NCBI GenBank assembly: GCA_013407085.1
Contig: JACCGJ010024047.1
Coordinates: forward strand, 16,791 to 80,790
DNA: 64,000 nt
Reading direction: 5' to 3'
Origin: Atriophallophorus winterbourni
Lineage: Eukaryota; Platyhelminthes; Trematoda; Plagiorchiida; Microphallidae
Shown here: one piece after another, positions 16,119 to 62,260 of the stretch
Position numbering within the stretch: the first letter of the stretch is position 1
Layout: the number at the start of each line of letters is the position of its first letter
Program-made: the position numbers and the translations under genes
Notes under the pieces: generated by a model
Database searches by the model: none
The model's input: the letters and a program-made list of their open reading frames with translations, nothing else
What the model was told of the DNA's origin: nothing

Positions 16119-16124
16119 TTTATT
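16119..16124 (-). terminator. Polyadenylation signal AATAAA overlapping the micro-exon gene stop codon
   Basis: Plus-strand TTTATT reads AATAAA on the minus strand and includes the TAA stop. If it is used, the 3' UTR would be only about 15-25 nt. A further TTTATT lies at about 16,055, so a longer alternative 3' end is possible. Confidence 0.55.
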
Positions 16125-16171
16125 CGAATATGTGATGATACGTCAAACTCGAATAGTGAGCACGGATGTGT
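16120..16171 (-). CDS. Micro-exon gene, exon 28: terminal coding exon
   Basis: An ATTACATCAG acceptor is followed in the required phase by HIRAHYSSLTYHHIFE and a TAA stop. The final codons GAA-TAA are followed by A, so a canonical AATAAA polyadenylation signal (minus strand, 16,124 down to 16,119) contains the stop codon. The C-terminus is rich in His and Tyr, unlike the helical middle of the protein. No longer coding exon is visible between here and the RTE fragment near 14.1 kb. Confidence 0.85.
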
Positions 16172-19100
16172 CTGATGTAATTTGGATCTGGAAGACGGTA
16201 TATTGTTGATTTTCATATAACAAATAACTCACAGATCATTCACAGCTTCATTGCTGATGTAAAACATAGAAACATTCGATTATTACATGAGATTCAAAGT
16301 TTTCGGGTTACTCGATGATTTCAACTTACATGGAGTACATGACCGCATTGCTGTTGGTAGTAAATTAAATTAAATTAATTAAGTTCTGTGTAGGAATACA
16401 AGATGAATGCTGATTGGGCAAGAAGTTATTCAACAACTCACTATGTCGCCCTGTGATTCTCAATACTGAAATTGTAATGAAATTAGACATTTATCGGTAA
16501 AACTCGCCAAGATTACCATAATAATATTATTGCAAACTTAAAAATGGCATTCACTACGAGGCATATTTCACGAGCGAATTTTCAGAGCCAAGTTTTGCGC
16601 CGCACCAATTTAGAAAAGAAATATTTGCGGTAAGCGAATACTTGATTGAAATGCTCTCTCTCCCGATTATTAACTTTTTATACCCACGCTGCACGACTGA
16701 CTCATAAGGAAAATCGTTTGAATAAGATAAGTGATTTTCTTACAAACAGTTGCATACTTAGGAGATGACCTAAATGATGTAATAGAAAAGCGCGTGGGTT
16801 GATTGTAAAATCAAATATCCCACTAAGTTGAAATTCGTTTTTTCATTTACTTTGGAAATGCTTTAAAAGCAATTTTATCCAATACCCAAATATGATGAAA
16901 TTATTTTAATAGTATTCATGCAAATTTCGCACATTATGTTCTTGATTACAGCAACTTACTCTTGATCCGCCAAACTGCAAATTGGGGATATATCAAAAAT
17001 TATAATATTGATATGAGATGAGTAAAACAGCATATATCTATATATGTATTGCTATAAATTTACGAATGTATTTATTTATGAATTTATGTACCTATGTTTG
17101 TATTGGTGTATTCATGATATATGTATGAATTTAAGTATTCATGCATGCATGTGTGTATGTATGATTGTATATTTGTATACAAGTTTGCATATGTATGTAT
17201 TCATTTAAATGCTAGAGACTGAAAACATTTTTCGACTTTAATTCTGCTAGGCATTGATTTCCTGACTTCCTGCGTAAAAACCGAATTTCTTAGAGTGTTA
17301 ATTAATTACCATCTTTGATTTTATCAGCTTCCTCATAAATTTGGTTTGTTCATACAAACTGTCTATTTAAACGAAAGCTTATTTACGCAGATCGAACATA
17401 TTTTAAATTAATGCCAGTATACTTACGTCGCTTCTGTCATGATGCGGCTGTAAACGAATATTGTAAATTTCACAGTTAATCACAAAATGAAGTTTGCCGT
17501 ATAAACATACAATTTCGAAAACTTACAGTTCATTCGCGGCACCAGCACTGGGTTTAAGTAAAGCAGATTTCAATGAATGGCAATATATAAATAACGAGAA
17601 AAAAAAGCGTTGCGGAGCATTCCCAATGGGTTATATCACAATGACGGCTTCTCCAGCTAAGTGATTTCTTGTTTCACGGATTTGGATATGTGTTTATTTA
17701 GGACAAAGTTTCAAAAGCAAATATCAAAATCACCTTCGTACCAGCCTTAGCCAACAATGGCATACAAGCGCTCCTTGTTATCCCTACTCAATTTGAACAA
17801 AGGTTTTATGAAGAGCCGTTTCAAACGCATTATAAAAGTAAGCAGGTGTAGTGAATTAGAAAGTGAACCTTAACATTCGTATTGGAACTGTCTGTCTGCT
17901 TTACCACGTTGTTTTCACTGGATGGATTGTAACTCGAACATGCTAGGTATTTCAAATTTTTGCTGCAACATTTGGCATTACTACCCAATAAAGGTTGATA
18001 GTATATTCCCAAGATCCCGGAATTGAACAGTAAACTAGAGAATAAATCGCTCATACATATATCTATATAGAAGTCAGTAATTTATGCCGATGACTATTTC
18101 AGTAAAATATATACATCTAATATTCGTAATTTTGGACTGCGCCAGCTGAAGCTGTTTTATTTTGATGGATTTGATTAGAGATGGTCGTTTCGCGCAGACG
18201 CAAAATGCTCAATTATAACATTACCTGTTCCTCCGATAAATGATATCATTCAAATATTTTTTCATTTTATAAATGTAATATTGTTAACCGGAATCTTAAT
18301 TATCATGTTATGTTGGAACTCACAGCTGTTTTTCAACACCGTAGCTTTTGATTCAACAGCGAAAAATGCATTAGTCAGGCAAACTAATGCTAACAAAATA
18401 CGTTAGGTATGTTTGAGTTATTAATCTGTTTATGTCAAACGATTATATGAAACAAAATACACAGCAGCATTTCTTTACCCTGAATTTCAACGTAACACAC
18501 ACGGTAAGTCGGCCTTCAATAAAGTAAAGTCCAATCGTTTAAAATGCCATATATTTCGCGCAATATATTTTCTTTTATCCTGGTACGTATGTGATGAAAT
18601 GTCACGCAAAGAAAAATATTTTCTTCATCTACTTTTGTTCCGGAGGCACCACATCATTTTAAATACAAAAAGGCTATTAAACAATGGTAGCTATACGTTT
18701 AAATCATTCGAGTATTCGAGTTTCCAACGATTTGAGGTTGAAATGTTGTTATTTTACAACAGCACCTTCAAATATTGAAGTAATGAATTTCACAAAAATG
18801 TAGCATGTAAATTAAAGAGTGAATCGACGAACAATACGGAAGCTTGAGTTACAATTGGATGAGGTATGTCGAAATATCGCTTTTCCATTGCATTGTTGAA
18901 ACAATTGCAATAGTGTATGACTTTCGGTAAACACAATTCTGCGGACAAGAATAATTTAGCGTTGTATCCTCATTTGGTAATATCACATGAAACTAGACGT
19001 CGCATTCGAGCGGTTTACGTAAAATCGCAAAAACCGTATGTATCTTCGTTGCGCTGTGTTATACTTTATTGAAGAGAGCACTATATTCTGTCTGCCGATA

Positions 19101-19504
19101 TACATTCTGGCAATGAACCGTGCTATTTGAGATTCTACTTATCAATACTTGAATGTTAGTTCACAACCCACCTCCATAACGAGTTACAGTTCAAAAGTCG
19201 ATATGTACATGATATGATTTCGAATATCAAGAAACGGATTTTAAGTAGCGTGAATATTCTAAGCTTCAGGCGGCATCCATGCTGATCGCTTTAGTGCTAT
19301 GCACTTTGTTGTTCAGCTGCAAACAACAAAAAGTAGTTTCCTTTTGTATTTTTGTAAAGCGTTGCGAGTTCTCGTCAGTATTCAGTTTATCAATCGCTCA
19401 AAATTTCGTTCAATAAACAACACAGAATTAAACTCCGAGGAAGAAATTATTTGTTATTTAATGCTACATTCTGGTGAAACGTTTATTAATAGTGCGGTCT
19501 ACCG

Positions 19505-19543
<39 letters not shown>

Positions 19544-20324
19544 TATATATTATTGGATACTTTTGGATAAGGTTAGTAAACCCAACCTGTTCAATCACTT
19601 GGGCGCACACTCATGTAGACAGGGTTTCCACGCATGACCTCGAAATACAAGCTTATTTGCAGCATTTCCTTGGCGCACTCTACGACCGGTTATATTCTGT
19701 TTGCATTTATCAGTTTAGGACAAAAGGAACATAATCCGCATGAGCTTGAAACCGCAAAAGAATGATAAAAAATTGCGTTTTGTGTTTGCATACATATCAA
19801 TCTTTTTCTACAGTTTCATTAAAGCGCAACATGTTTACCAATCTGCGACTGTTTCAAGCACATATAGAACATGATAGTACTGCCAATATCTGAGGAGTGT
19901 AAACAGCACGAAACCGGTCGTGGTATGTGTGCTGGAAATGCATGTAAATGAGCTTATTCCTACATAAGTTGATGCCAATATATCGCCGATGGAATCGGGT
20001 TATCTAAATCACATCTTGTGATGACATGTTTTGACAACACATTTGTATACTGATGCAAAATATCCCATTTCTGTCGAAACACGCAAAAGTATCGCGTTCT
20101 GAATAGTCATTTGAAATTCTTTGCATGGGTTGATCAACTAATATATGCTGTTCTTAGCATTAGTGAATTGATATTCAAAAGAGGCTATTAATGCGAATGA
20201 CCGAAATACTCAATGAGAAAAAATGTAGACTCACAGTACCAATGCTTCGTATCGATAGCTAAATTCATTAGGAAAAAGCAGTAATAGAAAGATAATATAC
20301 ATCTTTATTACAAAACTGCGTTCC

Positions 20325-20388
<64 letters not shown>

Positions 20389-23300
20389 CCAGTGTGAACA
20401 TACACTATTCACAAATAAGGTGCACCGGAATTTAAGGCTTACTGCCGATTTTTCGTATCAATTCGTGTTTTTATGTGCGCTCCATAGTCCGAAAAATACG
20501 GTAATATTATCCAGTTTGTTGTTCATATTCACGTCTCATTATGAAAATGTATTCAGTTGACCTCGGTCTAATATATGTTTACCGTTGCCACGTTCAATAA
20601 AGTAGAACAATCTTATGAATAAAAAATAAATCTGACGACGAAATTTCACACTCAAAAAGTTCATCTTCGTTGAGTCCAAATTAAATGAGAAGCTAAACAA
20701 AATTTCAGAAAATACCATCACTGGAAAACAAACTGCCATCCACATTAATCGGAAAATAACTCCGAATATTTCTGACATTTTCTGAAGATTCGCTGCAGAA
20801 GCAAAAGATTCCGGGATATCTGGTATCAATTGCACAATTGCTCTCAATATGAAAAATTTACGCGAACGTTAAAATACAATTTTCTATCTTCGAGATCATA
20901 CCGATAAATGGGAAGAATTTCATGTAAATGTTCAAATGATAAAATAGTTTGCAACAAATGATTAGCAAATTATTTAAACTAATTTGTTCACAAATAAACA
21001 TTTTTTACTTTGAAATAGGATTATAAACAATATAAACTTACATAACATCAAGTTGCCAATAATTGCTTGCGTGAAATAGGAACGAAACTATGATTTAAAC
21101 ACTTCAAACAATTCATTAAAATATCTCAAGCGCCTAATATTAACGTTAATATAGTTCGCATATTAGTTGAACAATATAATTCTTGGTGTAAAACGTGATC
21201 TGTCAAATAAAACTCGGAAACCTCTTCATTTCCTTTCTTGGGTTCAGCGGAAATATAGTCACGTTATCCACAAGCAATGATGCTCATGCTTAAATAACAT
21301 TTTTTTGTTCAAAGCTAGAAAATTAAGGGTAGTATTAGAAAAGCTTAGTGCCAACAACAAGTTTATTTACACACTATCAATGCACATATGTATACAATAA
21401 AACGCATTTGAACATTGCTGGCTACGTGTAATAGGATACATGCTTTTTTACATGATGAGTACAAACGGAACAGACCGAATGTAATGTCATCAGTGGCATT
21501 TTAGACGGAAATTCGCGTTCATCAATATACCGAATCAGAAAATCCGAGAATAATAGAATTGGAAATTAACATTTGCACATATACTAACTAAAATATCAGT
21601 TTTTAGAATCTGACATGCTATAACGCATATTATAATAAAAAGAGAGGAAATGTAAAATAATGGCAAACGCTTACCCGATATCTAGCCACATGCTAGTAAA
21701 ACAGAAAAGGTTTAGATTTATCCATGAAAATGACATGTGAAAACAAATATGAAGTAATCAATATAGAATTAGTTTCTTCTCTAGGTCCACAATCTTGTTG
21801 ATAAAAAAACGTAAAATATGTGAACTAACAAAACGTCTCCAATACTATGATAAATGCAAGTGTCAGGATGATACAAGCAAACTATCAAGCGATAATTCAT
21901 TGAGCTTATGGTTAACGTCACGTTATATCTGCTATAATTTTGTATATGAGGCTAATATGAGATCCTTTTTTTATGCAATCAGATGAATGATGATGGAAGT
22001 TTATCATAACTCGACAAGTCTGAGAAAAAAAGAATATTTTCGTTACAACGAAAATCCTAAAACCTATTTAATGTCAATCGAATAACGATATATTTTCTTA
22101 TTCTTGACAAACCGTTTCTAAAATGGAGCAATTCTAACACAATGTAGACAATTAAATTAAAGATATACGATAAAAAATTAACTCACAAATTTCCCAGTGG
22201 GCTAATTCTAAATTAATTTTATAAAATCATTAACCGATTTGCAAAATGCTTAGGAATTCTAAACATAATGTAAAAAACTACAAGCCTACAATGAAAAGGT
22301 ATGCTGAGGAATTGTTCGATAGTAGTCTGGTTTCATAATCGTATTACTGGTGTATTGTTTCTAAAACAGTTATGGTTTAGAAAACACTAATTGCATGCAA
22401 CGCTTGTGTTTCGTATGCTTCATGCTTTGATCGTGAAATCTGGGCCGTTCGCACATCACAGACGAAATAAAATATTTGAAGATCATTTTTTTCAAATTTG
22501 TCTTATAATTTACCTAATTTGCATTTTGACAGTTTTATCGAGTAGTCAATCGCGAGATTTACGTAGGATACGTAAATCGATTATTATACAATTCCACAGT
22601 AACTTCAGGCGTTATCTTACTAATGATGATTCTTAAAAGACCACTAGCAAATTACATAATCTATCTTAGTTTATTCTTAAACCAAAGTCGTAACAAAAAT
22701 GTGTTATTTACACTGCGTCGTTAAATATATTGGAGAAAGAGCTGTCCGGATTGTAAATTGGCCGTGTTTAAATCGACGTTTGCTTACCTATCCACTTCCG
22801 ATTTCATGCTGTAAACAAAGAATATATATAGTTTCAAATTTTCATCCAACTTTTGTATAAGGTTGGTAGGAACAAATTTACTATTACTTTTGACCACAAA
22901 CATTGTGCGTGTGGTCATTAGGTGTAATGTATGTAAGTATTTCTCGATACATTTTCAACGCGTTTTTGATTTATTTCGAGGTTAAATTGTTTTACGTAAA
23001 CATTGAAGATAAGCTTGTGATTTATTATTACGTGTTTGCTATATATTCATTGTACGGTGAATATTTAACGTTTACTTATAGAAATTGTCGAATGAAAGCT
23101 AGATTTGGATGGATGAAATTGGATACTTACAGTGTTTTCTGCATATCCATTCTGGAAAATATAGATGAAATAGTTAAACAATTAATCAAACAGGAATATG
23201 ATTGGATTTCCTTTCCAAGTCTGCAATTAATTGTTGATTTACGTTCCACTTCGAATATGAAACATTTTTGTGATCATTACCCTAGGTTCATTATCAATCA

Positions 23301-26300
23301 TTTCGAATTTCTGCAACTAGAAAACTCACAATTTCAAATTGTCTTCTCCACTGTGTTATAAATACACAAGTATAGAGAAAAGTTAATAAATCATTTTGTA
23401 TTGTAATTTCACAGAAAATTGTGTATACTTACCTGGTTGCGTTCTGAGAAAATCTGAAATGTGACATTTATGGGATATGCATTCACTTATCCAGAAAGAA
23501 ATATCTTATCATAATATAGTGAATAATGGAGTTACCTTGTATAAAGTGCATCAATTCTGTAAAATGTGATAAATAAAAGCGTACGTTATTTGCGAAATAC
23601 TTTGTAACTCAAGAACATTACTCGGTTTCGAAAGAACAGTGTAAATTGGATACATATATTCGTCAAATTCACAACACATCCTATTCAGCAACAAATAGTT
23701 GTTTTCTGTGAATGGATACATTTTTGTTGAAGAGAAATGTGAACTACTGATCCGAAGACTATTATAAACTCATGATATTCTAACATTTCGGTATTATTGA
23801 ATTTCACGAAATGAAACTCACTGCGCATCTTCCACCTTTAAACTAAAATAGAATAAACAGAAAAGCAAAATTATTTTATGCGGTGCAGATTTATTCTAAA
23901 GTGACAAAGTATCTGTAGATTTCATTATTATTTTTCCTGTAAGGAGCATTTGATTCAAAGAATCCAACTTTAAAATTTCAAATATAAATTTTTCGTTACG
24001 GAAATGTTGAATCTGGTGGCATATAAATTTGCATTCAATTGACCTGCGGTTATTATTGCGCTGGTTGTAGCATGATTTCATGCAATAATTTGCAGTGTCT
24101 ACTCGCGTGCATATGGAAGAGCAACCCGGTTTTTGATTTAGCATAGTAATCCGTGCAATGCTTGGTATTATCTTCACGTCATAACATGCGATCTCAATAA
24201 TTACGAAGGAGCCCAAGTTGTTAATAAATCACTGAAATACTTATATAGATAAACCTGACCTAATTTGATTACGGCTCGAAAAAATATTCTGTTGAATTCA
24301 TCTTATCGATGAGCTAATTAATTTTACCCAGATTCGTGTGAATCAGATCGGCACAAATGGGTCACTTGTTACCAAGTCAATTTTGACAAGTAAAATATGA
24401 GAGATCAAATGATAACTCACAAAAGGTCACTTGTGCCACTGTGGATTGAACGGAAAAAATGATAATTATAGCAATTTTGTTACAGCATTAAACTAAATTT
24501 AAATTAGTATGCCTTAATAATACATTTACAGTTAATATAAAATATGTGTCGGGATGACTTCACAGAAAAAATTGCTATTTATGAGAGATTATGATTAGAG
24601 ATTTAACAATAACTCACATCCAATACAACTTCGATTTCCTGGAAACAGTTTAGACAAATAATGCAAAATAGTTTAGCAAGTGGTTATTCTAAAATCACAA
24701 ATAATATAGAAATTGCTTGAAATATAATTATTACCGGAATATTTAAACGTTACATGTTCACAATATAAAATATACGGAACAATATTAAAACCTAATCTCT
24801 TGAGATCACAAAATAAATCGTTTATATACTATTAAATACGCAGATTGAATTTGTCAATTCTATTGTCTTTCTTTACATTTATTCTTCTATCCATCCACTT
24901 AACGGTGTATCTAACTACCTGTCTACTTGTAGGTACAATTAAAATAACATTTCTTCCAAACAACAAATTTCGATCACAAGAGATGCAAAACTATCAAGAA
25001 TTATTTTTATTCATGTTGATCTTGGAAAGAGCATCGTGTTGCAAAGCATTCAGCTACAGATACCTGATTTTAAGATATACACTCAATACGAACGATGTGA
25101 CCCCACCATCACTCAAATCAATGCCGTATTATTATTATTATCGTAAAATCGAAATATAATGTCGATTCATTACACTGTTTATCATGTTCCATCTATTGTT
25201 AGTTTTCTTGGTCAATGTAACAGGTTTGTCACCCTGACATTAATAATAATTTACTTATTCCTGGTGGGGAGTCTTTTTGTATATTTTGTATTAAAATAAT
25301 ATGCTCCAGAACAATACGCTGTTATATCAAATAATGATGTATAGAATGTATTTTAATTCAGTCGTTCGTTGCAACTCACATTGCATTCAATTTTATAAAG
25401 CTGCAATCAAGAATATGATATGACGCATTTGTAAATAAGCATGAGAAAATGAAAATAGCTTCATTACAAAAATGTGATGAAGCATCAAATTCGGAAAATT
25501 TCTTTTGAATATTGATTTCAACTGACTATTTTTTCGTGTCCAGCATTTCAATAGTTCCGATTCGTTATTGTAGTTGTAGGAAACGATTAATCATTTTGAT
25601 GAAAAAAGCATAATTCTAAAAACTGTAATTTTATAAAAGTGAACCATTATCTGTTGATTGATTATCAATGTCCTTCCTAATCTTGTTTTTATTCTTAATT
25701 TGCCCGTTACCACTACTCAGTGTTCACATGAAGCCTTTATCAAGTTTACGACTAGGAAGAATTTCTTATCATTTTGCATGTCAAACTTAATAATCTATTT
25801 TATTCACGACAACAGTGCTTTTGTCATTACATGCTACTACATAAACTAAGCTCAAAATTCGTTGTGTATGAATTCTTTGGCTAAATTACTTTGCAATCTG
25901 GAATAATACTCATTTGAAATCTTGAATTTGCCTCACATGCAATATAACAAAATCATAATGGCCTTCGTTTTTTTCAAATCGAATGTACTTATAAAGATTT
26001 TGCGGAAAAATGAGTATAAGTTATGTTTTAATTCGCACGGCGAAATGATTTTGTTTCCTGGCTTTCACTTGACTGATTTTCTACAGTGGAAATAATGTAA
26101 TCCTAGCACGATTTATATATACATATGAAAAGTTAACGGAGGCGGAATATCTCTTGTTATTGAATGTACTAAATTAAATGGGGGAACTATGAGATTCCCT
26201 AAGAATTCTCACGTTAAAATTATTGCCCAATTCTTGTGTCTAATAATGTTGACTGGTGGATCAATAGCAATAAATATAAATTAAACTATTACGGAACGCC

Positions 26301-28920
26301 TTCAATTGAAATCTTGTTTCCAATATTGAAAATGAATATAAATCGAACTAGCTCTATTGAGACAGAAGGCATTAAAGTGCAAATTGAATTTCAGAAGACT
26401 TACAATTCGTGTTGTTGTTTAATGCTGGAAACAAATAATAGTTGATCAATGAAGATTGTTAGGGTTAAATAAGTTTTACTTTGAAAAATATGCTTTCTCA
26501 GCTACATGTTTACAACTATACAACTGTATGAAGGCTCGGTGAAGCTGATGGTGGTGTCTCAAACCGACAACAAGAAACAACCAGAAACCGGTAGTGTTCA
26601 GATAAATGGGATGTTAGGACCACAATTGATGAAGACTTTAACAATTCGATATAAAAAACATGCATGCTACACATTTATCTATTCACAGTAAAACGCCTGA
26701 TGGCCTTGATAGAACAGACAATAGCAAATTCAAAGTAATTCAAAGTAATTCAAAGTTTTAATGGTCAAAAAGCAAATACTTTACAATAACCACAGATTAA
26801 AAATATATAGAATGCATTAAACCAAAACAAATGTTTTATCCATATGGAAAGTCATCACGTTTATTCAGGTGTAAGGTTGGATTTCGTCAACATATACTTG
26901 TGAAGTTCAGCCTTGAACATGTTCATGTTTGTTGCGCAAATCATATGTAGGGACAGGGAGTTCCATAAAAAACAAAAAACGACAGCAAAAAACCTTCGAC
27001 AATTTGATCTGGAGTGTGGAATAATTAACTTGTAGCCCTGCGATCTGCTACCACGTGCTTCTTGCCGTGTTCAATTGGGTGATTCACTGTATGCAGAATG
27101 TTGAACAGCGGGATCAAGTCACCTCTAAGACGACGTACGGAAAGTCAAAGAGGTTTAGAGTTGCGATCTGCTCTATAGCCAGGTCACCTGTTTTGAAGCG
27201 TGGTGGTATAACCGTTGCAGCAAGGTCATGTCCTTCTGGTAACCATGGGGACCATGCTTGAACAGCATACTCAATTGTTGGTCTGATATATGTGTTAAAT
27301 ATACGTGGGAGTATCTGCTTTGAGAAACGACCAAATATCCCTCTGAGTAATCCTAAGCTTTGGCAGGATTTATGTATACAACAGAACACTGCCGTGAAGA
27401 CATCAAGTTACTAGTAAACCACACGCTCAGGTCTTACTCCTCAGTAACCCATGAAAGTTGCTGAGATCCCAGAAAGTATGTGAATTCGAATGATTTTCCG
27501 ACTTTCAAAATTTTACATTTTTGGATGTTGAATGGAAGGCAGTTTCGCAAGGACATATTATGAAGTGCTTCGAGATCTTATTAGAGAATTTGACAATCTT
27601 CTATGTTGTGTATGCTAGTCACATACATTGATGTCATCCGCAAATAAAATGATTTTGCTGCGTACGATTTCGAGTATATAGTTCGCGTACACGAGTATTG
27701 GCTTTGAGACTAAGCCTTGAGGATTTGATACTCATGAGAAATAAGAATTATGTATCCTATGTACACTATAATGAATATCACAGAAAGAATTATTTCCGTA
27801 CTGTATAAGAATAAAAATGAATCTCAATGAATTTCGTTAAAACAAATAACAAAATTTACGACTTACAGCTTATTAAGTAATTCAAATCTGTGAAAAAAAT
27901 CATTTGAACGTAATTAATTGATGGACACGAAGACATATTTATGCTAAATTTTAGAATACTCACGCATCTCGTCCTTTCAATACTCCATGTGTTTCTCTAG
28001 AATAAAGAGAAAATACATTCAAATTCCGTTAATCTTCTGGCCAAATCACACAAGATGAAAACTTAACAATTTGATCAATCAAACAAAGTGTTAATCAGTA
28101 TACAGCAATTTATAATACCATGTCTGACGGTGTATGATTGTCGTTCATAGTGTAACATATCCGACATTGGATTTTGCTCTACATCTTCGAAAAAATAATC
28201 AGAATATCTGAGGCATCAGGAAAAACGTTCATTTGCAGCAGTTTAACAATTTTGTTTTTCACAATTTTTCAAATGCGTATTGCCTACACGAATATCGTCT
28301 TTCGGATTTATGAGAACAAACACTCATTCTATCGACAAAGCTTTATATCATATATCTTTATTTATGTGTATTCATCAGATGAATGAATGATGAAAACACA
28401 GACCTGAACACACATATCTAACATTCATCGTTTTCTTATATAACCCACATTGTTCGTCCTACATATGCAGGTGTAACAAACGTTTTTGAATATACTATGA
28501 TTGTTCAAATTTCACGATTAAAAATCTGGGTAAATTTCATACTCCAAGTTTCATGTTATATATAAAAAAATAATGTCATAATGAATGTTTTGATGAATAT
28601 CTAAGTACTATGAATTTCGAAATAAAATTAAAATATCCGGAAAATCAGCAAAGTAATACCGAAATTTATTCTAGTGGTATCCCATTCAAGTTAGATCAAC
28701 TCTATCGAATTTACAATTAATAATAAGCAGAACAATTATATGGAATGGAAGTTTTATTGAAGTCGCACATACGTTGTTGGTGCTCCAGTGACTGTAAGAA
28801 ACGGAGAAATAAAATTAACTTCATTATCAAAAGTTTTGGAGTCACAATTATTATGAATTTCTAGGACTCACCGACAATTAGAATGGCACTCAATACCGAT
28901 ACAATGTTGAGTTTAAGCAT
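16120..28920 (-). CDS. Micro-exon gene (MEG-like), 28 exons, predicted secreted protein of 219 aa
   Basis: Reconstructed by hand from splice signals on the minus strand. Each exon lies between an AG acceptor and a GT donor, mostly GTAAGT or GTGAGT. Coding lengths from exon 1 to 28 are 49, 19, 33, 21, 21, 27, 21, 21, 18, 27, then six of 21, then 15, 18, 24, 24, 21, 21, 21, 15, 24, 21, 21 and 52 nt. The sum is 660 nt: 219 codons and a stop. Intron 1 is phase 1 and introns 2-27 are all phase 2, so exons 3-27 are symmetric. Exons of 36 nt or less make up about 85% of the CDS. Exon 1 encodes a signal peptide. Introns run from 61 to about 1,890 bp. This matches the architecture known for schistosome MEGs (secreted, variable through exon skipping). 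I cannot place it in a numbered MEG family. Individual weak exons could be wrong or missing; the overall gene is hard to explain by chance. Confidence 0.9.
16233..18344 (-). CDS. Micro-exon gene, exons 21-27
   Basis: Exon 21 is 18,324-18,344 (YGVEKQ, split Leu). Exon 22 is 17,527-17,547 (AGAANE, split Leu). Exon 23 is 17,427-17,447 (RIMTEA, split Thr). Exon 24 is 16,960-16,974 (15 nt, LADQ, split Asp). Exon 25 is 16,442-16,465 (24 nt, IENHRAT, split Tyr). Exon 26 is 16,330-16,350 (NAVMYS, split Ile). Exon 27 is 16,233-16,253 (NEAVND, split Leu). All unspecified sizes are 21 nt. Donors are GTAAGT or GTGAGT throughout. The acceptor of exon 21 (ATCAAAAG) is weaker than the rest. Confidence 0.87.
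19507..19552. repeat. (TA)n microsatellite in intron 20 of the micro-exon gene
   Basis: A run of alternating TA with one interruption near its right end. The overlapping ORFs that read IYIYIYIY are artefacts of this repeat. Confidence 0.95.
20235..22201 (-). CDS. Micro-exon gene, exons 17-20
   Basis: Exon 17 is 22,187-22,201 (15 nt, PLGN, split Phe). Exon 18 is 21,675-21,692 (18 nt, MWLDI, split Gly; donor GTAAGC, acceptor TTTTACTAG). Exon 19 is 21,042-21,065 (24 nt, NYWQLDV, split Ile; acceptor CACGCAAG). Exon 20 is 20,235-20,258 (24 nt, YRYEALV, split Leu). This block is aromatic-rich (W, Y, Y, W, Y, Y). Introns 19 and 20 each hold a (TA)n run. Confidence 0.85.
20329..20385. repeat. (TA)n microsatellite in intron 19 of the micro-exon gene
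   Basis: An uninterrupted run of about 28 TA units, 70 bp below exon 20 in gene direction. Confidence 0.95.
22788..23842 (-). CDS. Micro-exon gene, exons 11-16: six consecutive 21-nt exons
   Basis: Exon 11 is 23,822-23,842 (LKVEDA, split Gln). Exon 12 is 23,536-23,556 (IDALYT, split Arg). Exon 13 is 23,433-23,453 (FSQNAT, split Ser). Exon 14 is 23,330-23,350 (GEDNLK, split Leu). Exon 15 is 23,131-23,151 (MDMQKT, split Leu). Exon 16 is 22,788-22,808 (MKSEVD, split Ser). All are 21 nt, so each adds exactly seven residues. Introns 12 and 13 are only 82 bp long. A 152-codon ORF on the opposite strand covers exons 14-16 but is a shadow. Confidence 0.87.
24205..26239 (-). CDS. Micro-exon gene, exons 6-10
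   Basis: Exon 6 is 26,213-26,239 (27 nt, HKNWAIIL, split Thr; donor GTGAGA). Exon 7 is 25,380-25,400 (21 nt, FIKLNA, split Met). Exon 8 is 24,618-24,638 (21 nt, KSKLYW, split Ile). Exon 9 is 24,421-24,438 (18 nt, GTSDL, split Phe). Exon 10 is 24,205-24,231 (27 nt, DLLTTWAP, split Ser). Exon 10 has the weakest donor (GTAATT) and is the least certain of the five. The others have GTGAGT or GTGAGA donors and CAG or TAG acceptors. Confidence 0.82.
26404..27996 (-). CDS. Micro-exon gene, exons 3-5
   Basis: Exon 3 is 27,964-27,996 (33 nt, ETHGVLKGRD, split Ala). Exon 4 is 27,867-27,887 (21 nt, FELLNK, split Leu). Exon 5 is 26,404-26,424 (21 nt, IKQQHE, split Leu). Acceptors are ATTCTAG, TTTTTTTCACAG and GTTTCCAG; donors are GTGAGT, GTAAGT and GTAAGT. 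Exon 3 is the longest internal exon. Intron 4 (about 1.44 kb) carries a CR1 retrotransposon fragment. Confidence 0.87.
26733..27745 (-). mobile_element. 5'-truncated CR1-type LINE in intron 4 of the micro-exon gene
   Basis: Minus-strand RT fragment: FADD with surrounding IILFADDIN near 27,640, then thumb and C-terminal motifs (GLLRGIFGRFSKQILPR, IEYAVQAWSPWL, TLNLFDF). It has frameshifts and stops. The 3' end is a direct-repeat tail of TTTGAATTAC-like units at 26,733-26,760. The 3' UTR matches the LINE copies at 9.5 and 12.5 kb. It lies in the same orientation as the host gene. Confidence 0.85.
28773..28791 (-). CDS. Micro-exon gene, exon 2: 19-nt phase-adaptor exon
   Basis: Acceptor TTCTTACAG and donor GTATGT flank 19 nt that encode TGAPT between two split codons (V before, T after). 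It enters in phase 1 and leaves in phase 2. It is the only exon that can join exon 1 to the uniform phase-2 series, so it is probably constitutive. Residues A-P here suit the end of a signal peptide. Confidence 0.85.
28872..28920 (-). CDS. Micro-exon gene, exon 1: start codon and signal peptide
   Basis: The minus strand reads MLKLNIVSVLSAILIV and ends with one base (G) of a split Val codon before a GTGAGT donor (plus-strand ACTCAC at 28,866-28,871). A basic N-terminus followed by a 12-residue hydrophobic core is a typical signal peptide. Cleavage is probably near the T-G-A-P encoded by exon 2. The reading frame stays open upstream to another Met near 29,058. I chose 28,920 because it gives a compact signal peptide and lies just downstream of a TATA motif. 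Confidence 0.88.
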
Positions 28921-28973: not shown

Positions 28974-28980
28974 TTTTATA
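28974..28980 (-). promoter_or_regulatory. Candidate TATA box of the micro-exon gene
   Basis: The minus strand reads TATAAAA 54-60 nt upstream of the start codon. Transcription would start near 28,945, giving a 5' UTR of roughly 25 nt. This is a motif match plus position only. Confidence 0.5.
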
Positions 28981-29045: not shown

Positions 29046-29102
29046 GGGGCATGACCAAATATGGCTATGCTAGATGGGGCATGACCAAATATGGCTATGC
29101 TA
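29046..29102. repeat. Tandem duplication, about 2 x 30 bp, upstream of the micro-exon gene promoter
   Basis: A 27-bp sequence beginning GGGGCATGACCAAATATG occurs at 29,046-29,072 and is repeated without change at 29,076-29,102. It ends some 70 bp upstream of the TATA motif. Perfect identity suggests a recent slip or selection on a regulatory site. Confidence 0.85.
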
Positions 29103-32734: not shown

Positions 32735-33400
32735 TAACGCGGTAATTCACTAGGCTTGCAAATGCATAAACTGTGCATGCGCTACAAGAATCATAGTTGT
32801 TTATGTGCTATAAATAAACGTGTAACTTGAGTACAAACTATTGGCCAAAACAACACTTTATTTCTTCTGGTATGCCAATTCTAAACTCTGCGCGTGCTCC
32901 AAAAACATCAGTTATTTTTGGACTCTCATTAAGTTTGTATCTTCAGTTGATTTCATCGCCTAAATTTACGCTACATTCCTCCTAGTATGGATATTATTAA
33001 ACTCTCTGCGTGCTACGAGAACCTTAGTTGTTTTTGTGCTCTGAATAAACGTGTAACTTGAGTACAAACTATTGGCCAAGTTAACACTTTATTTCTTCCG
33101 GTATGCAAATGGTCATCTCTGCACGTGCTCCAATAACATCAGTTGTTTTTGTGCTCTTATTATGTTTGTAACTTCAGTTGATTTCATCGCCTAAATTTAC
33201 GCTTCACTCCTCGTAGTATGCGTTTGCTCAAATATGCACGTTGTGCAAGAACATCATTCTTTATTTCTGCCCTGATTAAACGTTTAGCCTTAGAGTAAAT
33301 CGTTGACCTAATTTACGCTCCATTTCTCTTGGTATGTAAATTTGAAACTTGCACGTGCTTCAAGATTATGAGTTGTTTTGTGGTCTGATTTAGTGTGCAA
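32735..33400 (+). repeat. Tandem satellite, about 115-bp monomers (A/B dimers near 230 bp)
   Basis: Recurring landmarks are CACTTTATTTCTTC-GGTATG near 32,850 and 33,087, TTACGCT-CA-TC near 32,967, 33,199 and 33,314, and AACATCAGTTGTTTTTGTGCTCT between them. Alternate monomers are more alike than neighbours, which indicates a dimeric higher-order unit. Five or more monomers are present, diverged at the right end. 33,400-34,495 shows nothing recognisable. Confidence 0.8.
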
Positions 33401-39098: not shown

Positions 39099-41700
39099 TT
39101 AAATTTGTTTATACATGGGTTTGCCAATGCCGTAGCTCCATTCTTTGGGCAACCTACAACACCTCAGGGATAAACTGAAGATTAGCGCAAGTGGTTCGTG
39201 TATGATACCCGACAATTCGTTTAAATGTATAGGGTGTATTTCGTCCGGACCTTGTGCTGAGTGTACATCGAGTCGTTCGAGTAAAAACTGCAAGATCTTA
39301 GGCGATAGCGAGATATCCGGCATTTTGGGGCTGCTCGTATTGAGCACAGGAATTGGAAACGTCTCCTCTGTGTTAACCGAACTGTACTGTGCTACGAGAA
39401 AAACCGCTTCAATTACATTTTCATGATCAGTTAAACCTGCCATAGATCTCAAGTTGGGTACTCGTTGAGAACCTTTAGTTCTTTGTCTAATGTACGCAAA
39501 AAACATTTTGGTACTGAATTAGCTCCGCCCATCAAACAAGTTTCTTAGTTCTGTCTTTTTTCTCATATTAGGTAGGTGCACTTCATGCTTAGATTACATA
39601 GTCATCGGTGCATTCACTTGAACAAAACTTCCGCCATAACCGTTTTATTTTGTTCATGTATTTACGAATAACGTTATCAGAGAGAAATCTTCCATTTATC
39701 AATGTGGTATGATTTTCAAGCACGCTGATTTTACACAAAAAGTCTAACCATTTAGTATCAACATTCGTAAATGGAGGAATCAACCAGTCAATCGAGTCTG
39801 CAGGCAAGATTAGACTCTTTGTGTCTAATTTCCAGTAGTTTCTCTGGGCATGCTTGATAATTCTCGGTTAAGGACCTCGATTCCAAAAAAAACGATAAAC
39901 AACAGTGGTCGGTGCACACAATAGGGGTCTTGGTCAACAGATTTGTAACATCGGAAAATCTGGGTGTGACCTGTAAATCTAATATCGGAGGAACTTGTCA
40001 TACACATTTTATCGTAGGATCGTTAACATTCTGCACCAAATTTAGCTCCAAAATCGTATCCATAAGTTCTTGTAGGAGCAGTTTACATGCCGAAACTAAA
40101 TCCGTCTAGGTTATATCAGTCCTCCAAAAACGATAAAGTCACCAATAATACCATACTGTTTGATTTGATAACAACGCAGGAACATATGCGCCAGGAGAGC
40201 GGTAAATAACCTTTCGTGATACAGCCCCAGCGCTAAACTTTACTTGACACCAAATGCTTTCTGCATTTCCAGCATCATTTCAAAACCCTTCTATTACTTC
40301 CACAATCAGGTGCTCTTCAAGTTATACGGCAACGCCACCGGCAGATCTCGAAACTACTATATTACTTCTGAGAAGCGTATAGTGTGGTAGCGCGCACTCC
40401 ATATCAGATATATAAAATCTTAACCACGATTCCGTAGCAGCAATTATAACTGGCTTTTGCCGACAGACAATAACCTCGTAAAATTTATTGCGTAGTCTTC
40501 TTGCATTTGAATAAAAGACTTAAAATCTCTTCACAGAAAGATTAACTGGAGTAGGATTGACAGCGGCTTCCAACGAATGTACGCCTCCTCCTCACTACCC
40601 GATAATCCACAATATAGAGATCAACCTAGCTAGCTTCTCTACGTGCACGCAATTTTTGGGTGGCTATTTTTATTTTAATTGTTTATTCAGGAATCAGGTC
40701 ACGTAGTGTCTTGAACGGCTCTCCCTAAAAACAATGAACGTGTCTTAGAACCATCTGGATTTGCTCATCCGAAGCTGATACAATTTAGAATTTCCGCGTT
40801 TTATCCTCCTCCTTCTTTCGGCTAAGTCAAAATGCTGAAATAATGGTAACTCCTTCCTACCCTCGATTAAATAGCTTCGAGAAATGGATTGTTAAAAAGT
40901 GCACTCTTGATGTAAACGTATCTTAGCCGTGTATTCTGTTTGCTCCGGAACATTCACCATATTAAGGCAACGCTCCTGAGAATTTGAATATGGCTCCATT
41001 GAGACTGCAGATCTAAAAGCAGTAAGTATTACGCACTTTTTTCACTACATTTAGCTAAGCCTCTATTTTGAACGATCGCTGTCACAAGATTGCATGACTC
41101 GAATCACTAGATAGACCGTTCGACATCATGTCTGCATAAGTTTTATTCTTTCCCGACTGTTGAGTAATCGGTGTTGAAGGCCAGCAAACGTCGAGTTCAT
41201 TTACGTTTAATGTATCAGGGGTACTAATAGCAATTTGTTAACAGCTTGTAGTTGATTAAGCGAATGTCACGCAATATTTCTTCACAAATTGTCGTAATTA
41301 TCCTCAGCTAAGGTTAAGTAACTATTTATGTCTCTTCCATCAGCTGTTCTAGTAGATGCAGCTACGATTTCATTCTGACTACCTTCGTGCGTAACACTAG
41401 ATGCTGGAAGGCATATCATACATACAGTTCGAATAATATCGCATGATGTCTTCTGAAGACACCGGTATGTCTCCGGCTTCAATTACTTTAACCGAATATT
41501 TATCTTTTTGAAACACAATTCACATTGTATAGTTTTTGCATTATACGAAACCCGTTTAGGGCATACAAGGCAAGATTCCAACGAGCGAGCAGCGGAGCAC
41601 CTGATCCCTTGGATCTTCGTTGCAGTAGATGTTGTCCTATTTACTTTTGCAGATTTTCTATTCATAACCATGTTCAAATCCAGTGATAATCAAATAAATA
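39099..41700 (-). mobile_element. CR1-type LINE with PHD-like ORF1 segment, endonuclease and start of RT
   Basis: Minus strand from 41,677: CLVCPKRVSYNAKTIQCELC and, after a break, ETYRCLQKTSCDI. This cysteine pattern resembles the PHD finger known in ORF1 of some CR1 elements. From 40,560 comes the endonuclease (YSNARRLRNKFYEVI, TESWLRFYISD, PHYTLLRSN, SAGGVAV, GNAESIWCQVKF). Next is the linker (LWRKFCSSECTDDYVI), then RT fingers at 39,500-39,100 (VAQYSSVNTEETFPIPVL, LDVHSAQGPDEIHPIHLNEL, LPKEWSYGIGKPMYK). It stops abruptly there, so the 3' part is lost. Confidence 0.82.
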
Positions 41701-44890: not shown

Positions 44891-44954
44891 GTACGGATGA
44901 ATGCATGGATATACTCGTATGTAACTATTCATAAATTCATCCATCCATATATCG

Positions 44955-44956
44955 AA

Positions 44957-45024
<68 letters not shown>

Positions 45025-45082
45025 TTATCATTCGATCAATCTATCTATTCATCTATATATCTATGTATCTATCCATCCATCC

Positions 45083-45175
<93 letters not shown>

Positions 45176-45225
45176 GCAATCTATCTATCTATCCATCCAT
45201 ATATCGAACTATCTATCTATCTATA

Positions 45226-45264
<39 letters not shown>

Positions 45265-45344
45265 TTATCTATTTATATATCTATCTATCTATCTATCTAT
45301 CTATCCATCTATATATCTATCTATATATTTATCTACCTACCTAC

Positions 45345-45416
<72 letters not shown>

Positions 45417-45440
45417 ATATCTATCTATCTATCTATATAG
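44955..45440. repeat. TATC/CTAT tetranucleotide array, about 0.49 kb
   Basis: Long runs of CTAT units interrupted by CCAT, TTAT, ATAT and CTAC variants. The segment CATCCATATATCGAACTAT occurs twice (before 44,960 and at about 45,194), showing an internal duplication of the array with its left edge. The 182-codon ORF (44,897-45,445) is only the repeat translated. Confidence 0.97.
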
Positions 45441-58964: not shown

Positions 58965-59357
58965 GTGAACGATTCTTTTAGGAACAGTAATTCTAGATAT
59001 TCTAGAAAGTATCTCCATCCATTACCTACGCAACCTCCCATTTACAAGTATTGTGGGTATTCACCTTATGGTTCCCCTAATTATTCTACATGGTATTCCT
59101 ACCCTTACTCCAATCAGCATGGTGACCAGCCACAAAAACTTAGTTTAAATAGAAATGGACACCTCAACTTTAATTTACCTTATGTTTATCCCAATCCACA
59201 TACTGTCATGTCACCCCAAAGAAACATGCATAGTATTTCATCTTGGCCACAACCTGCTCCACAGGTTTATCCATCTTATGCCCCCAGCCATTTTTACCAA
59301 GACTATTCACCACAGTCAAATTTTCCACCAGTGTTTCCACCCGTATACAGGATTTAA
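58965..59357 (+). CDS. LINE ORF1, partial, Pro/Tyr/Ser/Asn-rich
   Basis: Open frame from a stop at 58,887 to TAA at 59,355-59,357. The frame has no ATG before codon 80 or so; 58,965 is a GTG, so the true N-terminus is probably lost by 5' truncation against the Gypsy fragment. Composition is low-complexity: YGSPNYSTWYSYPYSNQ, YVYPNPHTVMSPQ, PAPQVYPSYAPSHFY. No zinc knuckle, RRM or PHD is present. Its position directly before the endonuclease-RT frame identifies it as ORF1 of that LINE. It overlaps the ORF2 frame by at least 115 nt. Confidence 0.65.
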   Translation: MNDSFRNSNSRYSRKYLHPLPTQPPIYKYCGYSPYGSPNYSTWYSYPYSNQHGDQPQKLSLNRNGHLNFNLPYVYPNPHTVMSPQRNMHSISSWPQPAPQVYPSYAPSHFYQDYSPQSNFPPVFPPVYRI

Positions 59358-62260
59358 CACAATCTAGTTCGAAATCCCAGGTCCCCATCACTAACACATC
59401 TATCTGTACTCCCGCCATCAGCATCCTTCTATTTAATGCGAGATCTATTTCTTCCAAAATGTCTGATCTTCAATTTTTCCTGTCTGCTAACCCAACTGAT
59501 GTAGTTCTAATCACTGAAACTTGGACAACTGATGAAGATATAGACGCTACACTTTCTCTACCAAATTATAATATTTTTCGTAAAAATCGGTGCTCCACTC
59601 GTGGTGGTGGTTGCATCATATATATTACTAAGAATATTCCTGCCAATCTTCATTGTTCTTCCTCACTGGATGAAATTGATGATTCCATATGGATACATAT
59701 ACCTTCATTAGATGCCATTTTCGGTTGTATTTACAACCCACCTCCTCCATCCTTACACAATCTTGATAAGATTAAAAATGCTTTTATTGAAGTTTCTTTG
59801 AACCCTTTTAAAAATAAACTTATAGCTGGTGATTTTAACATGCCTTATACATGCTGGAACTCGCCTCAGCAATCTAGAAAATTTTCCTCTTTTTCCGAAA
59901 CAATCAACCTACTAGGTTACACCCAAGTAGTTGATAAACCTACAAGGCACTCAAACCTTCTAGACCTTATTTTTACATTGGGTCCTAATGCTAGTAATGT
60001 GAAAGTCATAGCACCCCTTCCTGGTTGTGACCATAACATGATCACGTGTCAACTTCATTTTTGTGAGAATCGGACCTCCATCAGCAAAGCTAATGGTCGT
60101 CTCTATGTTGATTGGACAAAGTTTTCGGCTCTAATTAGAAACTCTGATTGGACTGACTTCTTTATATCTCCGGATTTTAACCTTATCTCTTCAATATTCC
60201 ATAAGAACTTATCTAAATGTCTCGTAACTGCATCAACTTCTCGGAAAACTAAATCAATTAAACTTGATAAAATAAACCTTCTTGAAAAAAAGATAGCCCG
60301 TCTTTCTGCTTTTGTAAACCACACACCAGACTTTTATTCATTTTTACGTCTCAAGGAACTTCTTAGCTCTTTTACAACGATCAAATTACAATTCATCGAG
60401 AATCAAGAAAGAATGGCCCTGAACGGTGCTTCGAAAACCAAGTCTTTGAATAATCTAACGAGATCTCGATATAATCTAAGTAAACATGAAATTTCTACAA
60501 TTGTGTTCCCCCATGATGATATGGAATCATCCACATCAGATTCTTCAGAAATAAGTATGCTATTTTTAAACTATTTTAGCCAATCATTCAATACCACCAT
60601 ATACCCTATTCCAGGTCAAAATACCAGCGTACACCCTGTACTCCCAAATCAAAATAATAATTCAATGTGTATTGATTCCATCTCCTTTAGTTTACAAGAA
60701 GTTAGCGCAATGTGTCGGCGAAGCAAAGCTTCTTACAAGCCTGATACTGTAGGCTTCGTTCCAGCAATGTTGCAACTAAATACGGATGATATACCTTTAA
60801 TTTTATTAAACCTGTTTAATCTTTCTGTTAAATCTGGTATATTTCCCCTCGAATGGAAACATTCTGTCATTATACCTCGGTTTAAAACAGGGAATTCGCA
60901 CATTATCACTAATTATCGCCCAATTAATCACACACCTTTTCTCTCTAGGCTATTCGAAAAGTTGATCAAGAACGCACTAATAGCTTACTTAGGCCCAAAC
61001 GCTTTCTCTCCATTCCAACATGGCTTTTTAAATCAGAAGTCCTGCATTACCTGTCAGTTGGAATATTTAGACTATGTAACCACCTCCATAGATCATGGAT
61101 TAGCTATATTGACAGTTTTCTTAGACATTACCAAAGCATTTGATAAGGTCCCTCATTCTCTTCTTCTTCGAAAATTATCATCACTTGGTATTTCCGGACC
61201 CCTATTTAATTGGTTTTGTTCATATCTTTCTGATCGTACCTTCTCTGTTTCCGTTAATGGCATATCCTCTGAAACACAACCTATACCAAGTGGAGTCATT
61301 CAGGGTAGCGTACTAGGTCCTCTCCTTTTCCTTATATATATTAATGATGTGCAACATTTTGTAAAAAACTCAAAGCTCTTTATCTTTGCGGATGATATTA
61401 AACTTGTCTTAGCTTTTCCAGCCATAGAGATATCACAGGCTATAGACTCCCTCAACGATGATCTTTCAACCCTTTCAAGTTGGGGCTCACAATGGGGGTT
61501 AGAATTCTCAGCTCTGAAGACGCAATTCATGGGTATACGCTGCTCAATACCCCCTGCTAGTATCATTCTCAACAATACACCACTCGCACCTTCTAACGAA
61601 ATCAAAGACTTAGGATTTAGGTATTCTTCATCTCTTAATTTCAACGAACAAGTAAGATTTCTCATAGCAAGAGCTAGACAGAATTTTGGTTTGATCAATC
61701 AAAAATTCCTCCTTCGTGAAAGTAGACTGAGTCTATATAAAATGAAAGTATTACCGATTCTTGATTACTGTAATATAGCCTACTCTCACATCGCTAGGCG
61801 TGACTGTATACTCTTAGAAAGCCTTCAACGAAGAATTAGCAAAATCATGTTAGGCTACTCTAATCCTTCATCTTATGAAGTACGATGCAGTCTACTAGGC
61901 ATTGACCCGCTATGGTTACGTAGAATTCGCCTTAATCTTTCTCTTTTCTTCCGAATCATCACAGAGCACCAAGTTAAGATTAGGTCCACAATGCGCTTCC
62001 AAGATTGTAATCGTTATGTACGACGTAACCGAATGAGGCTATTACATATTCCCCTTACTCGCACTAAAGTTCGACAAAACTTCTTTTTAATTAGGTATGC
62101 ACATCTTTGGAATTCTCTTCCACTCCATTTTCGTATGTGCACTTCTACAGGTAAATTTAAAGCACTCGTAGAATCTCTTACTGCTCCATCGCTATGTGAA
62201 ATTCTCAAAATAAACAACTCTATAGACAATATATTTTGTCACGGTATTCCTGGTTATTGA
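59243..62260 (+). CDS. LINE (CR1/Jockey group) ORF2: endonuclease and reverse transcriptase, intact frame
   Basis: A 1,005-codon frame without stops, the only intact retrotransposon polyprotein here. It should nick target DNA and reverse transcribe its own RNA. APE-type endonuclease: LLFNARSISSKM, ITETW, AGDFNMPYTCW (Asp197, Asn199), NLLDLIFTL, GCDHNMI (Asp263, His264). RT: SVIIPRFKTG, NYRPINHTPF, PFQHGFLNQKSC, FLDITKAFDKVPHSLL (Asp628), SGVIQGSVLGPLLFLIYIND and FADDIKLV (Asp717, Asp718). Thumb (ALKTQFMGI, EIKDLGFRY) and C-terminal LLGIDPLWLRRIRLNLSLFF follow. No RNase H, as usual for this group. The frame begins with TTG; its only early ATG (59,459) lies after the first endonuclease motif. 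Likely a young insertion. Confidence 0.93.
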   Translation: MATTCSTGLSILCPQPFLPRLFTTVKFSTSVSTRIQDLTQSSSKSQVPITNTSICTPAISILLFNARSISSKMSDLQFFLSANPTDVVLITETWTTDEDIDATLSLPNYNIFRKNRCSTRGGGCIIYITKNIPANLHCSSSLDEIDDSIWIHIPSLDAIFGCIYNPPPPSLHNLDKIKNAFIEVSLNPFKNKLIAGDFNMPYTCWNSPQQSRKFSSFSETINLLGYTQVVDKPTRHSNLLDLIFTLGPNASNVKVIAPLPGCDHNMITCQLHFCENRTSISKANGRLYVDWTKFSALIRNSDWTDFFISPDFNLISSIFHKNLSKCLVTASTSRKTKSIKLDKINLLEKKIARLSAFVNHTPDFYSFLRLKELLSSFTTIKLQFIENQERMALNGASKTKSLNNLTRSRYNLSKHEISTIVFPHDDMESSTSDSSEISMLFLNYFSQSFNTTIYPIPGQNTSVHPVLPNQNNNSMCIDSISFSLQEVSAMCRRSKASYKPDTVGFVPAMLQLNTDDIPLILLNLFNLSVKSGIFPLEWKHSVIIPRFKTGNSHIITNYRPINHTPFLSRLFEKLIKNALIAYLGPNAFSPFQHGFLNQKSCITCQLEYLDYVTTSIDHGLAILTVFLDITKAFDKVPHSLLLRKLSSLGISGPLFNWFCSYLSDRTFSVSVNGISSETQPIPSGVIQGSVLGPLLFLIYINDVQHFVKNSKLFIFADDIKLVLAFPAIEISQAIDSLNDDLSTLSSWGSQWGLEFSALKTQFMGIRCSIPPASIILNNTPLAPSNEIKDLGFRYSSSLNFNEQVRFLIARARQNFGLINQKFLLRESRLSLYKMKVLPILDYCNIAYSHIARRDCILLESLQRRISKIMLGYSNPSSYEVRCSLLGIDPLWLRRIRLNLSLFFRIITEHQVKIRSTMRFQDCNRYVRRNRMRLLHIPLTRTKVRQNFFLIRYAHLWNSLPLHFRMCTSTGKFKALVESLTAPSLCEILKINNSIDNIFCHGIPGY

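Follow-up and report, generated by a model that had tools for sequence, protein, structure and literature searches.

A putative multicopy family of micro-exon genes with heptad-sized exons in the digenean Atriophallophorus winterbourni

Micro-exon genes (MEGs) are described mainly from schistosomes, and the traits of the class include protein variants made by alternative splicing of the micro-exons and expression in glands or epithelia that face the host. As defined in the accessible passages of two papers, MEGs hold about 80% of their coding region in short symmetric exons (6–36 bp) and have a secreted product (PMC5825161; PMC4350168), and an excerpt of a third gives the MEGs of Schistosoma mansoni 10–20 very short exons, with 15 bp as the commonest size (PMC10526429). 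A second system, the bicycle genes of aphids, is presented in the accessible text of two further papers as multicopy, fast-evolving and secreted, with many small internal exons that are nearly all of phase 2 and with helical products (PMC9168663; PMC13041983). Here, we analyzed a stretch of 64,000 nt from the fluke Atriophallophorus winterbourni (assembly GCA_013407085.1, contig JACCGJ010024047.1, positions 16,791 to 80,790; hereafter the window, in whose numbering all positions of its gene are given), the minus strand of which carries a series of very short segments between 28920 and 16120 that an original prediction, made from the letters alone, had joined into a single secreted-protein gene. 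Beyond that single-gene description, we found the window gene to be a member of a multigene family, and the explanation developed below, taken as a whole, is very probably correct: the gene would be one member of a multicopy digenean family of micro-exon genes.

Aligning the window with ten copies found elsewhere in the genome, and requiring that borders and frame be conserved, yields a gene of 26 exons, 588 nt and 195 aa, whose ATG has its A at 28920 and whose TAA stop has its last base at 16120. These ends, the strand, the open frame and the AG/GT borders are those originally predicted; the count of 28 exons in a 660-nt frame is not upheld, as two of the 28 segments lack support from the copies, one of them possibly being 27800–27765, which we rejected as an exon since its donor is kept in no consistent way among copies. 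Likewise, a phase-1 intron is indeed followed by phase-2 introns only, and there are 24 of these instead of 26. The first three exons measure 49, 19 and 33 nt and the last one 28 nt, and between them stand sixteen exons of 21 nt, two of 18, three of 24 and one of 15, so that 16 of the 26 have exactly the length of one heptad. The predicted protein starts with MLKLNIVSVLSAILIVVTGAPTT and ends with LLTYHHIFE; its hydrophobic opening, MLKLNIVSVLSAILIV, was judged signal-peptide-like by eye and on the Kyte–Doolittle scale, in line with the original prediction, and is retained in the copies, and the part that follows it contains no cysteine and one NxT sequon. In the mechanism that we propose, a TATA promoter would drive a transcript of ~13 kb, from which 25 introns would be removed and 26 exons joined to encode a 195-aa secreted protein.

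By its architecture, the window gene would thus be a micro-exon gene, as originally proposed, and one of a new family: symmetric exons of at most 36 nt make up 83.7% of the 588-nt coding sequence (CDS), above the ~80% of the definition, the hydrophobic start is of the kind expected for a secreted or membrane-exposed product, the paralogues show that the exons are coding, and the source is a platyhelminth. The gene shares with schistosome MEGs, as far as the excerpts go (PMC5825161; PMC4350168; PMC10526429), a flatworm genome, a signal peptide, a CDS made mostly of short symmetric exons, long introns, several copies, some of them clustered, and a high ratio of nonsynonymous to synonymous substitution (dN/dS). 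It differs from the S. mansoni genes described there in having 26 exons rather than 10–20 and 21 nt rather than 15 bp as the dominant size (PMC10526429), and from schistosome MEGs more generally in belonging to a non-schistosome fluke, in having only phase-2 introns after the first and in showing no detected similarity to known proteins; unlike MEG-4 and MEG-8, its main product has, by eye, no hydrophobic C-terminal domain. The reading frame would allow protein variants to arise by alternative splicing of micro-exons. With aphid bicycle genes, it has in common the many small internal exons of phase 2 (here, 24 phase-2 introns), the multiple copies and the fast evolution, and presumably also secretion and helices; however, this is a fluke and not an insect, and no relation is detectable. 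In the accessible text, bicycle genes are named for their CYC motifs, with cysteine-free members also existing, and have saposin-like folds (PMC9168663; PMC13041983), whereas the mature window protein has no CYC motif and no cysteine at all, and its genome carries the mitochondrion of a digenean, not of an aphid or other hemipteran. We therefore take the resemblance to be one of architecture only, probably reached by convergence.

That segments bounded by AG and GT can be joined in frame carries no weight alone, because, with site strength ignored, a chain of 104 exons can be built from the real region and one of 93 on average from 30 shuffles, which is what would be expected if the array were nothing but segments picked by eye that happen to join. 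When every AG..GT segment is scored with hand-set, generic metazoan splice-site weights, the picture changes: nine segments of 6–39 nt with a summed score of at least 8 lie on the strand and in the region of the gene, eight of them of 21 nt, against three on the other 115 kb of window strand. The best symmetric phase-2 chain reaches 83.7 on the minus strand, when no chain of any phase exceeds 13.2 on the plus strand, and within the gene region it reaches 73.8, against a mean of 4.7 (SD 3.4) and a maximum of 18.6 in 200 dinucleotide shuffles; the region also holds 13 strong 21-nt exons, the shuffles at most one. Together with the conservation of borders, length and frame among paralogues, this refutes the chance reading, to which we leave a practically negligible probability. 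One result of the scoring does count against the model, namely that minus-strand chains in phases 0 and 1 still score 59.4 and 53.6; many exons are shared by these chains, being free of stops in two or more phases, and the phase assignment consequently rests on the stop counts and the copies described below and not on the chain score.

The family came to light through a whole-genome pattern for strong 20–22-nt micro-exons, which matched 97 times forward and 103 times in reverse, when its reversed version did so 82 and 95 times. With 200 matches versus 177, the pattern is mostly background and provides no statistical test by itself, but among the matches listed were variants of exon 13 (23151–23131) on many contigs. 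Ten such places were fetched and aligned with the window, and an eleventh copy, C9432, was examined separately. In all ten, the array is present with its order unchanged over the sequence available (C2067 and C2109 end at contig ends, and the tails of C1146a, C1146b and C6961 lie outside the stretches fetched), and all ten align to the window including the introns, with 61–94% identity in pieces; in C9432, 25 exons were found, all of the model but exon 16. Genome searches with the 5′ end of the gene gave 41 matches at 28 places, the window included, those with its 3′ end at least 55 matches (40 of 442 candidates scored), and a pattern for exon 11 hit 20 places, when its reversed version hit none. 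The assembly has probably split alleles into separate places in some of these cases, and there may thus be fewer loci. Both gene ends are found again on one strand of one contig, at the distance of a gene, for example on C13849 (ends at 27743–28912 and 39892–41351), C1146 (three copies), C14275, C9432 (three) and C14131 (two), which argues that the unit is one gene that duplicates as a whole, partly in tandem arrays. This joint recurrence also bears on whether the array might instead be two tandem genes, one starting at 28920 and a second running from a hydrophobic ATG (20326/20302, MYIIFLLLLFPNEFSYRYEALVL) to 16120. Such a division could be suggested by the strong signal-like sequence lying in frame upstream of the exon at 20258–20235, whose acceptor is weak in the window; however, in each of the 11 aligned copies this exon is flanked by an AG on one side and a strong donor on the other, and most other copies carry a better acceptor (gctttYag) than the window, and we hold two genes to be very improbable.

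Within the single gene, all features lie on the minus strand, and the copy counts given for each exon include the window copy. Exon 1 (28872–28920, 49 nt) contains the ATG and the predicted signal peptide and ends in phase 1, and exon 2 (28773–28791, 19 nt) leads from phase 1 to phase 2. Exon 3 (27964–27996, 33 nt, ETHGVLKGRD) has AG and GT in 10/10 copies and is open in nine, with stops in C1146b. Exons 4 (27867–27887, FELLNK), 5 (26404–26424, IKQQHE) and 6 (25380–25400, FIKLNA), each of 21 nt, are kept in 10/10 copies, as are exons 7 (24618–24638, 21 nt, KSKLYW) and 8 (24421–24438, 18 nt, GTSDL) among copies having them, both being absent in C6248. Next come six exons of 21 nt kept in 11/11 copies, namely exons 9 (23822–23842, LKVEDA), 10 (23536–23556, IDALYT, with the donor gtaact in every aligned copy), 11 (23433–23453, FSQNAT, with the N-glycosylation sequon at N86), 12 (23330–23350, GEDNLK), 13 (23131–23151, MDMQKT), whose relatives led to the family, and 14 (22788–22808, MKSEVD). 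Exon 15 (22187–22207, 21 nt, ISPLGN) is intact in the window; its donor GT has become TT in five of the ten copies having it, and it is absent in C2736. Exon 16 (21675–21692, 18 nt, MWLDI) is kept in 9/9 aligned copies, and shows as alignment gaps in C1127 and C2109 though both possess it. Exons 17 (21042–21065, 24 nt, NYWQLDV; 10/11 copies, five of these with 18 nt) and 18 (20235–20258, 24 nt, YRYEALV; 11/11) are followed by exons 19 (18324–18344, 21 nt, YGVEKQ; 10/10, with an acceptor that is weak, aaaag in the window, yet conserved), 20 (17527–17547, 21 nt, AGAANE; 9/9), 21 (17427–17447, 21 nt, RIMTEA; 8/9, with strongly divergent copies) and 22 (16960–16974, 15 nt, LADQ; 7/8). Exons 23 (16442–16465, 24 nt, IENHRAT), 24 (16330–16350, 21 nt, NAVMYS) and 25 (16233–16253, 21 nt, NEAVND) are each kept in 7/7 copies, and exon 26 (16120–16147, 28 nt) encodes LTYHHIFE and the TAA stop.

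An exon filter that demanded border conservation in 80% of copies or more, a mean donor score of at least 2 and a mean acceptor score of at least −2 passed candidates of 21 nt (13 times), 24 nt (three), 18 nt (two), 15, 19 and 33 nt, as well as others of 14, 50 and 53 nt (three times) that are not model exons. Three 21-nt exons of the model fall outside it: those starting at 23556 (donor gtaact, 11/11), 22207 (five copies have lost the donor) and 18344 (acceptor weak but kept, 10/10). The segments 16696–16688 and 21316–21296 were rejected as exons on account of their unconserved borders. Since the internal exons from the third on are symmetric and bounded by phase-2 introns, the loss or skipping of any one removes whole codons, mostly a whole heptad, and would leave both the frame and the register of a helix intact; the absence of two exons from C6248 and of one from C2736, and the loss of the exon 15 donor in five copies, appear consistent with a tolerance of such in-frame losses.

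At the 5′ end, the TATA motif reported originally (TATAAAA, 28974..28980) is kept in 10/10 copies with the region, window included. Directly upstream of it lies a perfect 30-bp tandem duplication (1.9 copies, 29046–29102), present, out of the ten copies with the region, only in the window and the near copy C2067. At the 3′ end, exon 26 is the least certain exon of the model: its acceptor AG is kept in 7/7 aligned copies and in C9432 (ttcgag in the window, ctcgag elsewhere), but its acceptor score is weak (−3.2) and the position of the stop codon varies among copies. The stop does lie within an AATAAA in the window, as had been noted; other copies read AATTAA, and this lack of conservation makes a role as poly(A) signal doubtful. 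A last exon at 16187–16115 was rejected for its unconserved acceptor and for 2-nt gaps in copies. Within intron 4, a phase-2 frame at 27711..27800 (LTEIILSVIFIIVYIGYIILISHEYQILKA and a stop), likely a membrane helix, is kept as a hydrophobic frame in 10/10 copies with the region, its acceptor AG being lost in four of the ten, and may possibly represent an alternative, membrane-anchored last exon or the remnant of one. The same intron holds, at 27721–26731, an apparent retrotransposon fragment (by eye) in the window and, mostly, in C2067; other copies align only outside the fragment.

The reading frame was assessed on 224 aligned instances of exons 3–25 in the 11 copies, exons aligned over less than half of their length being dropped. 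AG is kept in 221 of these instances and GT in 219, all 224 have a length divisible by three, and 215 have the length found in the window. Phase 2 contains three stops in 1,363 codons, all in exon 3 of C1146b, when within-exon shuffling leads one to expect 108 on average and at least 70 (1,000 shuffles), and when phases 0 and 1 contain 115 in 1,587 and 73 in 1,363, respectively; codons spanning the junctions include no stop (0/209), and an intron control gave 318 in 4,341. These counts settle the reading frame. It should be said that the concatenated exon strings of C2109 and C6248 go out of frame owing to missing pieces, and that some copies are decaying, as the stops of C1146b illustrate. 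The latter, the exon 15 donor lost in five copies and the two exons missing from C6248 could be taken as signs of a dead family, a former gene of which every copy now decays neutrally; however, neutral decay predicts about 108 stops where three are seen, and the frame of the window copy is open. No retrocopy was found that could serve as proof of splicing: when the genome was searched in six frames, the spliced protein as query gave no candidate and no processed copy, an empty result that does not help the gene model and is uninformative.

Divergence among copies was compared after excluding C2109 and C1146b, here and in the codon-model, heptad and variability analyses. Among the nine copies retained, exons diverge more than their flanking introns in 36 of 36 pairs (ratio 1.10–2.38; pairs share ancestry and are non-independent), when neutral decay predicts equal divergence, and we regard a dead family as very improbable. 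For the 21-nt exons, per-position differences amount to 0.12–0.44, against mostly 0.05–0.28 in introns, and fall to 0–0.1 over the first six donor bases and 0–0.05 over the last three acceptor bases. The median pairwise ratio of nonsynonymous to synonymous divergence (Ka/Ks) is 1.32 in the true frame, against 0.87 and 0.61 in the other two, and Ka exceeds the divergence of far introns in 36/36 pairs. On 141 codons of the nine copies, with a tree from flanking introns, an MGK codon model with kappa gives an omega of 1.75, significantly better than an omega of 1 taken at its best over a ten-value kappa grid (2ΔlnL, twice the log-likelihood difference, of 14.6, P = 1.3e-4).

Several observations weigh against positive selection as the full account of this excess. 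Exon by exon, it is not universal, with 7/15 exons in one pair, 10/20 in another and up to 16/17; Ka exceeds Ks in 31 of the 36 pairs and not in all; and without kappa the omega test is weaker (2ΔlnL 7.0–7.5). Ks itself exceeds the far-intron rate in 30/36 pairs, with a median ratio of 1.33, so that part of the effect may come, besides selection, from gene conversion, local mutation or multiple hits. That micro-exon synonymous sites diverge some 1.3 times faster than introns (median, nine copies) is also an observation in its own right. One may thus ask whether the family is real and coding, with exons made fast by gene conversion, faster mutation or intron constraint rather than by positive selection. 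Besides the elevated Ks, such a reading could draw on exon versions that recur in distant copies, exon 21 of C1146a and of the window being one base apart when that of C1127 is almost wholly different. Yet introns diverge about equally near exons and far from them (medians 0.229 and 0.231), which means that the exon excess does not come from constraint next to exons, and both the 31 pairs with Ka above Ks and the omega of 1.75 speak for selection; we consider this alternative unlikely, though it keeps an appreciable share of our belief.

In 127 seven-residue units from 21-nt exons, mean hydropathy at positions 1–7 is 1.36, −1.99, 0.32, −1.33, −1.94, −2.07 and 1.46, a pattern as extreme as in none of 5,000 within-unit permutations and which holds also when averaged over the 16 exons. 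Residue identity at codons 1–6, the range that it covers, is 0.72, 0.43, 0.53, 0.67, 0.56 and 0.41, with its peaks at 1 and 4 and its minima at 2 and 6; on the hydrophobic side, codon 3 is fairly variable too (0.53), which fits less well. Hydropathy and identity together agree roughly with a putative amphipathic helix whose buried side is kept and whose exposed side varies. The mature chain would then consist mostly of seven-residue units, one per 21-nt exon, with hydrophobic residues mainly at positions 1, 3 and 7, and would most likely fold as amphipathic helices. The whole unit would duplicate, in part in tandem, giving copies whose later divergence is smallest at positions 1 and 4 and largest at 2 and 6, which are hydrophilic, as would be expected for a secreted protein of the host interface that is selected to vary.

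The family has no counterpart in the resources that we searched, and the suggestion that it may be undescribed holds to that extent. No homologue appeared among 5.8 billion proteins at E ≤ 0.01 (3,504 candidates) or E ≤ 10 (5,567 candidates; two alignments), nor any similarity to a numbered schistosome MEG family in the same searches, which were word-based, covered a very large database holding fluke proteins and could miss a remote relation. The window protein matches no Pfam family; three weak Pfam matches (best E 0.07) were discarded, each occurring in only one of five copies, and four PDB profile matches (best E 0.041, TSG101) were taken as noise. The accessible text of the A. winterbourni genome paper contains neither “micro-exon” nor “microexon” (PMC7936022), and a literature search found no paper joining “micro-exon gene” with “heptad”. 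As to the source, the best cytochrome oxidase match of the genome reads with the flatworm mitochondrial code 9, and this COX1 is 79% identical to that of Prosthogonimus cuneatus, a genus of the Microphalloidea; among the 120 matches listed, no other exceeds 70%, and Schistosoma entries reach 65%. Judging from COX1, the source is a digenean nearest Prosthogonimus and not a schistosome, so that data from schistosome glands are the wrong test of this gene. The genome also contains many damaged COX1 matches, on contigs C4859, C4746, C8922 and others, perhaps old mitochondrial insertions in the nucleus.

Scans of the window for Rfam families (gathering threshold) and tRNAs returned none. On the plus strand, 59234–62260 holds a stop-to-stop frame of 1,008 residues that resembles, by eye, the endonuclease and reverse transcriptase of a non-LTR (long terminal repeat) retrotransposon and seems intact; at 32781–33283 lies a tandem repeat with a 231-bp unit present about twice, and at 44939–45436 a long ATCT microsatellite.

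From the perspective of parasite evolution, a large, fast-evolving family of MEG type in a distant fluke lineage would detach this architecture from schistosomes, a blood-feeding-related origin of MEGs being suggested in the accessible part of one paper (PMC5825161), and would offer a second system for testing the reasons behind the use of micro-exons by parasites. A concrete structural reason would be given by the near-uniform heptad exon. Going further, we tentatively put forward, at somewhat less than even confidence, that the heptad is the unit of evolution here: a hypervariable secreted family, at some 20 or more places in the genome, would be assembled from 21-nt phase-2 cassettes of two helical turns each, and in this way the skipping or loss of exons and rapid substitution could alter the exposed face of the helix without breaking frame or register, a design that aphid effector genes would have reached independently. 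If this were true, the phase-2 micro-exon design would be a general genomic solution for diversifying helical host-interaction proteins. Finally, as the six-frame search gave no candidate for such a gene even with its own spliced protein as query, the secreted repertoires of flukes may be undercounted.

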